From: an uncultured Clostridia bacterium
GTDB lineage: Bacteria; Bacillota; Clostridia; Oscillospirales; UBA644
Assembly: GCA_948443805.1 (NCBI GenBank)
Contig: CAOJUB010000012.1
Span: forward strand, 1 to 52,802
Direction: 5' to 3'
Length of the DNA stretch: 52,802 bases
The stretch's first letter is position 1; each line of letters opens with the position of its first letter. Position numbers and translations under genes: made by a program. Below the pieces are notes generated by a model that saw only the letters and a list, made by a program, of their open reading frames with translations, made no database searches and was not told the DNA's origin. Positions 26,014 to 51,020 of this stretch are shown piece by piece.

Positions 26014-26099
26014 TCTTTATTATAATACATATTTCACACCGGAAAACAGCGGTTACACAAAACGGATATTCAACCGAACAGTTACAACACATTTTTTAT

Positions 26100-26119
26100 A
26101 AGAACGGCAAGCCGTTCTT
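26100..26119. terminator. Perfect hairpin between comF and ruvX, weak terminator candidate
   Basis: AAGAACGGC and GCCGTTCTT form a perfect 9-bp stem with a 2-nt AA spacer. The + side continues TACCTGTTTTT and the - side ATAAAAAATG, so neither strand has a clean T-run. It is the only structure after the ruvX stop. Confidence 0.4.
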
Positions 26120-26128
26120 TACCTGTTT

Positions 26129-31925: not shown

Positions 31926-33278
31926 TCAGCTCGGATTCTTCTGTTTTTCACCCTGCTTTTGATTCCATACGCCCGTCCGGAAAAAAAGAAGCGAAAGAAT
32001 CGCGGCAACAATCCAACCAACCGGCCAGGCAGACCAGATTCCGGCCGTACCGAAAAATCCGGAAAGAATTTTTGCCAAAATCACCCGGAGAAACAAATCG
32101 GCAAAAGTACCGATCATAAATCGGGTCATCATCCCCGCCCCCCGAAGAATTCCGTCGGCGACAAGCTTTGCGGCAAGAACAAAATAAAACGGAGAAATAA
32201 TCCGAAGAAACAAAACGCCGGTTTGAAGCGCCTCCCCTTCGGCGCGGTTCAGAAAAAGAAGAACCAGCGGTTTCCCCGCAAAGAAATATAGAAGCGCAAT
32301 CGGCAGCGTAATCAAAAAAATCAATTTCAGGCCGGCCCAGAAACCGCGCCGGATCCGTTCCGGCTTTTTCGCGCCGAGATTCTGCGCCGTGTAATTGGAA
32401 ATCCCGTTGCCAAGCGTGGTAAAAGAAGTCGTAACCAGATTATTCAGTTTCACGGCGGCGGAATAGCCCGCCATCACACCGGAACCGAAGGTATTGATTA
32501 CCCCCTGGATCAAGATATTGCCCACCGAAATAAAGCTCTGCTGCAAAATACTCGGAACAGCGACAATTGCAATCTTTCCCAACAGCGAAAACGAAAAATA
32601 CGCCGGTTTTTCTCCCGGAGCGACCTTTGACAGCCGGCGGAACAGGACAAACAGCGCAGCCAGACAACTAACGCCCTGGCAAAGAAAGGTGGCCCAGGCA
32701 ACGCCGGCAACGCCCATTTGGAATGCGGTGACAAAAAGAATATCCATACCGATATTGGAAACCGAAGAAATTGCCAGGAAAACAAACGGCGTTTTCGAAT
32801 CTCCCATTGCCGAAAAAATTCCGGTAGCAACGTTATAATAGAAAACAAACGGAAGCCCGAGGACATAAATATCCAGATACAGCGCCGAATCGGCAAAGAC
32901 ATTTTCCGGGGTATGAATCAGTTCCAGAAGCCGGCCGCCGAGCAGCCCGCCGGTGGTCATCAGCAGCAGACAAAGTCCGCCGCAGGCAATCAGCGTGGTA
33001 TATACAGCGGTTTTCATCTCCCGAAACCGCTTTGCGCCAAAAAGATTTGAAACAACGACTGAACAGCCGATGTTGCAGCCAAAGGCAAACGCAAGAAAAA
33101 TCAAAGTGATTTCATAGCTGTTGCCCACAGCCGCCAGTGCGTTTTCCCCGATCCACTTCCCGGCGACAAAACTGTCGGCGATATTATACAGCTGCTGAAA
33201 AAGTACGCTGCCGAACAGCGGCAGACAAAACTGCCAAAGCACCCGTTCCGGATTTCCGGAAGTCAAATCCCGATTCAT
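31926..33278 (-). CDS. MATE family efflux transporter
   Basis: Cation-coupled multidrug/toxin exporter of the NorM/DinF superfamily in the cytoplasmic membrane. 450 residues and about 12 hydrophobic helices in two pseudo-symmetric halves. Recognisable: the N-terminal LTSGNPERVLWQFCLPLFGS, LYNIADSFVAGKWIGENALAAVG, and AAVKLNNLVTTSFTTLGNGISNYTAQNLGA in the second half. Substrate unknown. AGAGGAAA lies before the ATG. It has its own promoter (33422-33450) and an unusual 5' leader of about 135 nt made of five consecutive hairpins. Confidence 0.93.
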   Translation of the reverse strand: MNRDLTSGNPERVLWQFCLPLFGSVLFQQLYNIADSFVAGKWIGENALAAVGNSYEITLIFLAFAFGCNIGCSVVVSNLFGAKRFREMKTAVYTTLIACGGLCLLLMTTGGLLGGRLLELIHTPENVFADSALYLDIYVLGLPFVFYYNVATGIFSAMGDSKTPFVFLAISSVSNIGMDILFVTAFQMGVAGVAWATFLCQGVSCLAALFVLFRRLSKVAPGEKPAYFSFSLLGKIAIVAVPSILQQSFISVGNILIQGVINTFGSGVMAGYSAAVKLNNLVTTSFTTLGNGISNYTAQNLGAKKPERIRRGFWAGLKLIFLITLPIALLYFFAGKPLVLLFLNRAEGEALQTGVLFLRIISPFYFVLAAKLVADGILRGAGMMTRFMIGTFADLFLRVILAKILSGFFGTAGIWSAWPVGWIVAAILSLLFFRTGVWNQKQGEKQKNPS

Positions 33279-33310
33279 TTTTTCCTCTTCTTTCTTCTTA
33301 TATCATGGAG

Positions 33311-33413
33311 CAAAAAGACTTGCTTGCAAGGGCATTTTTGCGATGTGATTCAATATCGCAGCCGTGCTCTGCACGGAGTGGCAAAGCCACAAAGTCTTGC
33401 TATGCAAGGCTTT
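33311..33413 (-). repeat. Array of five consecutive short hairpins in the MATE gene leader
   Basis: In + coordinates: GCAAAAA...TTTTTGC enclosing CTTG...CAAG (33311-33341); GCGAT...ATCGC; CCGTGC-TCT-GCACGG; GTGGC-AAA-GCCAC; and AAAGTCTTGC-TAT-GCAAGGCTTT. The last three have 3-nt loops and near-perfect stems and follow each other almost without gaps. The whole array lies in the predicted 5' untranslated leader of the MATE gene. It may be a cis-regulatory RNA or a palindromic repeat element. Confidence 0.7.
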
Positions 33414-33421
33414 CTGCGTAT

Positions 33422-33450
33422 ATTATACCACATTTTTCCTCATATGTAAA
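33422..33450 (-). promoter_or_regulatory. Sigma-A promoter of the MATE gene
   Basis: On the - strand TTTACA (33445-33450), a 17-bp spacer, and a perfect TATAAT (33422-33427). A transcript from here would begin just before the hairpin array. Confidence 0.75.
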
Positions 33451-50616: not shown

Positions 50617-50645
50617 TTGACTTTTTTCTGTTTTCATGGTAGAAT
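50617..50645 (+). promoter_or_regulatory. Sigma-A promoter of the tRNA-Ala/tRNA-Trp cluster
   Basis: TTGACT (50617-50622), a 17-bp spacer, and TAGAAT (50640-50645). Confidence 0.82.
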
Positions 50646-50653
50646 AAAGAACA
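50633..50653 (+). repeat. Direct repeat copy 1 containing the tRNA promoter -10 box
   Basis: TTCATGGTAGAATAAAGAACA, 19 of 21 identical to the copy at 50735. It carries the TAGAAT -10 box. The 80 bp between the copies hold a TTCGGCT/AGCCGAA hairpin and GCGC-GTT-GCGC. Confidence 0.8.
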
Positions 50654-50734
50654 GCAAGCTGCTCTTAGGAAAAACATCTTTCGGCTATCCAGCCGAACAG
50701 CGCGTTGCGCCGCCGGTGTTTTTCTGGTGCGAAA

Positions 50735-50755
50735 TTCATAGTAGAATAAAGAGCA
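50735..50755 (+). repeat. Direct repeat copy 2
   Basis: TTCATAGTAGAATAAAGAGCA. It also contains TAGAAT, about 55 bp before tRNA-Ala, and might be a second start site, although a -35 box is poor here. Confidence 0.75.
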
Positions 50756-50801: not shown

Positions 50802-50877
50802 GGGGTATTAGCGCAGTTGGGAGCGCACAACACTGGCAGTGTTGGGGTCAGGGGTTCAAGTCCCCTATACTCCACCA
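50802..50877 (+). tRNA. tRNA-Ala, anticodon GGC
   Basis: 76-nt tRNA with encoded CCA. The acceptor GGGGTAT pairs with ATACTCC, giving the G3-U70 pair that identifies alanine tRNA. The anticodon stem is CAACA/TGTTG around CTGGCAG (GGC). Confidence 0.96.
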
Positions 50878-50944
50878 GAACCGTCTGCGAAAAGGAACTT
50901 TCCTTTTCGCAGCGGAATGATCCAAACAACCGAATACAAAATAT

Positions 50945-51020
50945 AGGGGTATAGCTCAGCCGGTAGAGCAGCGGTCTCCAAAACCGCGTGTCGAGGGTTC
51001 GATTCCTTCTGCCCCTGCCA
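50945..51020 (+). tRNA. tRNA-Trp, anticodon CCA
   Basis: 76-nt tRNA with encoded CCA. Acceptor AGGGGTA pairs with TGCCCCT, D arm GCTC...GAGC, anticodon stem GCGGT/ACCGC around CTCCAAA (CCA), T loop TTCGATT. Its 3' end lies at the border of the AT-rich region. Confidence 0.97.

Follow-up and report, generated by a model that had tools for sequence, protein, structure and literature searches.

The structured 5′ leader of a putative MATE-type exporter gene in an uncultured Clostridia bacterium is probably a member of a family of mobile palindromic elements, non-coding, non-autonomous and about 125 to 150 bp long, that use promoter −10 boxes as insertion sites. For the family, location, orientation, the existence of promoters without the element, dispersal and compensated DNA palindromes are established. 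The likelihoods that we attach to this explanation and to the four alternatives considered below cover overlapping readings.

In the window, by which we mean the whole 52,802-nt stretch of DNA analysed, the leader has to be read on the minus strand, where it runs from 33450 to 33279 and precedes the gene at 31926 to 33278 (minus strand, ORF listing). We take the 450-aa product to be a MATE-type exporter, an assignment made by an earlier, sequence-only reading. In this direction the order is TTTACA (33450–33445), a 17-nt spacer, TATAAT (33427–33422), a folded stretch reaching to about 33297, CCATGATATAA, an RBS-like AGAGG just upstream of the gene, and the ATG at 33278. The promoter that had been proposed ahead of the start codon, TTTACA-17-TATAAT, therefore agrees with the sequence, and its coordinates are now located on the minus strand. 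The −35 box (33445 to 33450) is host sequence outside the element, which starts directly 3′ of an extended −10 box (TGGTATAAT, with TATAAT at 33422 to 33427); the covariance-model match covers 33297–33427. Folds and covariation in 100 sequences define a cloverleaf half at 33345 to 33421, in which an outer stem formed by ATACGCAG (33421–33414) and CTGCGATAT (from 33361) encloses hairpin A (33413–33391), hairpin B (33390–33378) and hairpin C (33376–33362), each with a 3-nt loop, and is followed by ATTGAATCAC. Next comes the right-end hairpin GCAAAAATGCCCTTGCAAGCAAGTCTTTTTGC (33310 to 33341), the best-conserved block of the family, with a bulged YC that is CC in the MATE copy. The 3′ terminus, CCATGATATAA (33297 to 33308), carries a second −10-like hexamer, TATAA(T), and was placed from the sequence and the covariance-model boundary. 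The earlier count of five stems, three of them with 3-nt loops, is right for the minus-strand fold; the description "five consecutive hairpins" needs amending, as three hairpins sit inside the outer stem and the long bulged hairpin comes after it. The minus-strand fold has an energy of −50.4 kcal/mol (z −3.5), matched by 0 of 200 dinucleotide shuffles, and the plus strand forms an equally good or better fold (z −4.8), as palindromic DNA should.

A sequence search placed the 131-nt stretch at 15 sites in the 1.81-Mb host genome, and a covariance model based on 30 relatives recovered 14 copies there. Aligned to one orientation, the copies start where TGGTATAAT or a variant of it ends and lie upstream of unrelated genes, including pyrH (UMP kinase), LysR, NUDIX, MATE, parA, nrdR and minD-like genes, named by reading their sequences; a common function was sought among these downstream genes and none was preferred. 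The host genome also has a second family of −10-bounded elements, designated module X, with 65 matches. Together the two families form 44 arrays, in which modules meet at TATAAT-like hexamers. Two module-X copies lie in the window: one at 26019 to 26121 on the minus strand and one at 50637 to 50749 on the plus strand, upstream of the tRNA genes at 50802–51017, the latter with TGGTAGAAT at its left end, TTGACT 17 nt before that, and AGTAGAAT at its right end. In another genome, one locus (L347, G234:C40:19300-19800) holds two different TATAAT-bounded elements in tandem, one of them of the family described here, and at a further locus (L343, G323:C200:14600-15700) another, unrelated hairpin element is bounded by TATAAT.

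The family extends well beyond the host. It is present in four order-level relatives, and an exact-pattern scan with the right-end hairpin matched at least 116 contigs, nearly all from Clostridia MAGs and many with titles that point to gut or rumen. The source genomes searched with the covariance model were all positive (27 of 27, with 1–16 copies each). In a class-wide sample the element occurred in 14 of 146 other Clostridia genomes, a patchy spread. The right-end hairpin had no match in plasmid and phage collections, and among viral sequences one contig matched it. At four loci (L217, L177, L180 and L111) a variant carries TTTGTCGGCGT ahead of the same hairpin, with a right end such as CCTGGAATCAA replacing TATAAT; this variant also occurs in a contig labelled as a Spirochaetaceae MAG. 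Parasporobacterium paucivorans DSM 15970 (L198, ~7433) has the right-end hairpin only, within a different repeat and without the −10-bounded left half.

Nearly every complete copy starts immediately 3′ of a −10 hexamer, with a −35 box outside the element and usually 17 nt upstream. Among 78 non-tandem copies from many genomes, 53 have a −35 box, called where a hexamer 16–18 nt ahead of the left TATAAT agrees with TTGACA in four or more of its six positions, and in 43 the distance is exactly 17. The same call was made at 22% of 541 other TATAAT sites in these loci and at 12% of random positions. At TGNTATAAT control sites the figure was 51% (p 0.03 vs elements), and since TGNTATAAT by itself accounts for much of the −35 signal, it may be the sequence rather than the promoter that is recognised. 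In the host genome, 34 of 40 arrays have a −35 box compared with 18 of 137 controls. The −35 sequences and all sequence upstream vary between copies, and the −35 region is therefore host sequence. On the other side, 62 of 86 copies are followed within 250 nt by a same-strand start codon that has an RBS-like motif; for 78 of the 86, the sequence at hand ran on for at least 400 nt. A second TATAAT-like hexamer closes the element at its 3′ end, and tandem and mixed arrays are joined at TATAAT. Pairs of TGNTATAAT 60–400 bp apart are more frequent on the same strand (74) than on opposite strands (29) in 0.92 Mb, sequence that was mostly selected for core content and hence reveals additional families and gives no frequency estimate. 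Of the 74 same-strand pairs, 65 hold the core, and six of the nine others are strongly structured.

Orthologous promoters with and without the element allowed a comparison of filled and empty sites, which rests on copies other than the MATE leader and on a set without a genome of that copy's genus. In Ruminococcus-like relatives the parA promoter has TTTACA-16-TGNTATAAT behind a parS-like box, TGTTTCACGTGAAACA. It is filled directly after TATAAT in three genomes (L259, L291, L299), by three different subfamilies, and is without this element in about 20 relatives, most of those in which the promoter was recovered. Since orthologous parA promoters lack the element, the promoter came first. Two leaders within these relatives (L295, the G092 parA leader, and L275, the G112 parA leader) seemingly contain inserts of another kind, rich in hairpins and with ends resembling TATAAT. 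Three sibling species of one genus, with a genome each, share a promoter that holds this element in G234 and G206 and, in G323, an unrelated, hairpin-rich insert of 322 nt (fold z −6.7, ends TATGGTATAAT); in all three, the host leader picks up directly after TATAAT. The −10 landing site is thus common to several unrelated hairpin elements.

In 100 aligned copies, standard pairs fill 94.8% of paired cells (77.4 when shuffled), two-sided changes number 484 (126 when shuffled), and the covariation score is 0.382, compared with 0.112 for shuffled alignments and at most 0.08 for slid versions. A mismatch search over all possible stems gave shuffled-sequence levels only, and we used a count on the aligned stems instead. 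There the mismatches, counted over related copies and not as independent events, are strand-symmetric (G-T 36, A-C 52), with G-T 2 vs A-C 22 in the right hairpin alone; tRNA acceptor stems at the same loci served as a control and gave G-T 13, A-C 0. Constraint on a sense-strand RNA should skew mismatches in the opposite way. Given this symmetry, the covariation is better read as the product of DNA palindromes, maintained by template switching or hairpin-dependent movement, than as selection on an mRNA fold. Loop inversions between orthologues, such as AGA/TCT, fit template switching.

These data bear on the strongest alternative, which is that the element is a host-useful leader module: transcripts would start inside a stem, 5′-end-dependent decay would be blocked, and copies would have spread by raising expression. 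The position of the copies at the 5′ end, in transcript orientation, is as this explanation would have it, and stems are retained in some orthologous copies, including the diverged pair L346/L354, which could reflect host use. We nevertheless consider it unlikely, as the stems show no G-U excess, unlike the tRNA control, empty parA sites are common, no downstream function is preferred, and palindromes can also be kept perfect by template switching at the DNA level.

The ends of the element speak to how it inserts. The left hexamer is TATAAT in nearly all copies. Right hexamers are less uniform: in 27 of 72 the sequence is other than TATAAT, and in each of these it is unlike that of the left partner. 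The right end CCTGGTARAAT is the signature of a subfamily, and a comparison of the terminal 12 nt found no terminal inverted repeats (identity 0.24–0.39 vs 0.26–0.33 when shuffled). For these reasons the right TATAAT looks to be borne by the element rather than duplicated. The same three observations weigh against an ordinary MITE with terminal inverted repeats, moved by a DDE transposase and duplicating TATAAT as its target, which we rate as slightly less likely still than a leader module. In its favour, TATAAT-like hexamers flank both sides, and the base before the hexamer agrees weakly between left and right (44 vs 36 expected). In some module-X copies, by our own reading of the arrays, left and right hexamers also agree, which would suit target duplication.

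In one class of copies, compared by eye and with exceptions, the bases ahead of the right hairpin correspond to those ahead of the right TATAAT (TCA/TGA, CCA/TGG, ACA/TGT). Such matches recall the guide/cleavage-site pairing at IS200/IS605 ends, a likeness that is suggested only. The Y1 transposase domain (Y1_Tnp, PF01797) is missing from the host genome and from 21 of the 30 carriers searched. In the nine other carriers, Y1 genes lie at terminators, none beside the element core and none with the element's ends, and no autonomous relative sharing these ends was found at the Y1 loci. We therefore rejected a Y1 transposase acting in cis or from the same genome, being mostly absent and never adjacent, as the mover. 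Nor did we see strain polymorphism of the kind that recent transposition would leave. Both points count against the mobile-element reading. At L309-L313 and L318, IS200-type transposase genes lie just past terminator-like T-runs whose ends read TTTGTATA or much the same, so that their target seems to be linked to terminators.

An enzyme-free origin, in which replication slips or switches template from one TGGTATAAT repeat or hairpin to another, would suit the tandem arrays that meet at TATAAT and the loop inversions, which are typical of template switching in palindromes. This account seems improbable to us since it leaves unexplained how copies reached dozens of unlinked promoters and why they are so sparse across the class. 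A cis-regulatory RNA, whether riboswitch or not, that serves MATE and further genes would be in line with covarying structure lying after the promoter and ahead of the start codon, but is highly improbable given the unrelated downstream genes, tandem arrays, empty sites and strand-symmetric mismatches (36 vs 52, against 13 vs 0 in the tRNA control), and given that Rfam returned nothing above the gathering score at the MATE-leader site in the window and chance-level hits only at five element loci. The sequence-only reading had hinted that MATE genes might be under a new class of riboswitch, which the same evidence and the stems without G-U excess disfavour; its alternative of an inserted palindromic repeat element has held up, with 15 host-genome copies and, for other copies, orthologous promoters found empty. 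Two of the checks that it proposed gave positive results, the search for copies elsewhere in the host genome, ahead of unrelated genes, favouring a repeat element and the search for covarying stems in other genomes finding strong covariation. The −10 box as an insertion point had gone unseen.

For the mobile element that we favour, we propose that it is inserted at (TGN)TATAAT by a putative recombinase, which may recognise hairpins and act on a single strand, as in IS200/IS605 elements. Insertion at this site would spare the −35/−10 pair, so that the target gene would still be transcribed and would gain a structured 5′ leader. Insertion would presumably be near-neutral for the host, and an effect on the mRNA such as 5′ end protection, if any, would be secondary. 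More tentatively, and with less than even confidence, we hypothesize that the several unrelated hairpin families make up a class of mobile DNA that attaches at the −10 box and is spread over Clostridia by a putative recombinase, with promoters serving as safe landing sites and mRNA 5′ ends being rewritten. Attachment at the −10 box would perhaps exploit the non-template strand, which is single-stranded in the open complex. Usual insertions harm promoters or supply their own; landing right after the −10 box changes the leader only and leaves the gene on, and would thus be tolerated. If confirmed, this would give mobile DNA a new rule of target choice, would account for many unusual leaders of gut Clostridia whose folds could pass for riboswitches, and would provide a genome-wide promoter marker in unculturable organisms.

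Among known systems, miniature elements of the IS200/IS605 group have subterminal bulged hairpins and insert in a specific orientation 3′ of a short target, without terminal inverted repeats or target duplication. The family described here shares the subterminal imperfect bulged hairpin and the one-orientation insertion 3′ of a fixed short target; unlike elements derived from IS200/IS605, no Y1 partner or autonomous relative was found for it in the host genome and 30 carriers. BOX elements of Streptococcus (boxA/boxB/boxC) are likewise small, modular, hairpin-forming interspersed repeats of a low-GC Gram-positive host, with a variable number of modules and no transposase of their own, and are considered parasitic (PMC3049150); this likeness is one of architecture only, with no sequence comparison behind it. 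BOX elements are enriched between convergent genes (PMC3049150), whereas the present elements occur in Clostridia directly 3′ of a promoter −10 box, in transcript orientation, with TATAAT at each junction. Imperfect palindromes, a conserved unpaired flank and wide dispersal are shared with REP/REPIN sequences with their RAYT (Y1) and with GTAG- and CGTC-tagged palindromes (PMC3733652), and CGTC repeats also lack a transposase (PMC3733652). REP-type repeats are single hairpins of 20–40 bp, mainly from Proteobacteria, and "Firmicutes" is absent from the text of that survey (PMC3733652); they have no reported −10 target, and in the present case Y1 is mostly absent. Correia repeats (CREE/NEMIS) of Neisseria (PMC10969869, PMC2229807) are, like our elements, small repeats at promoters, one of them just downstream of the mtrCDE promoter (PMC10969869). 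Correia repeats have terminal inverted repeats with TA ends, duplicate their target and bring along their own promoters, whereas the present family has no terminal inverted repeats and lands at a promoter of the host. Among the open-access papers that we searched, none described a −10-fixed landing site common to unrelated families in Clostridia. Small palindromic repeats are already known as a kind from BOX, REP and Correia; the −10-box landing site would be the new part.
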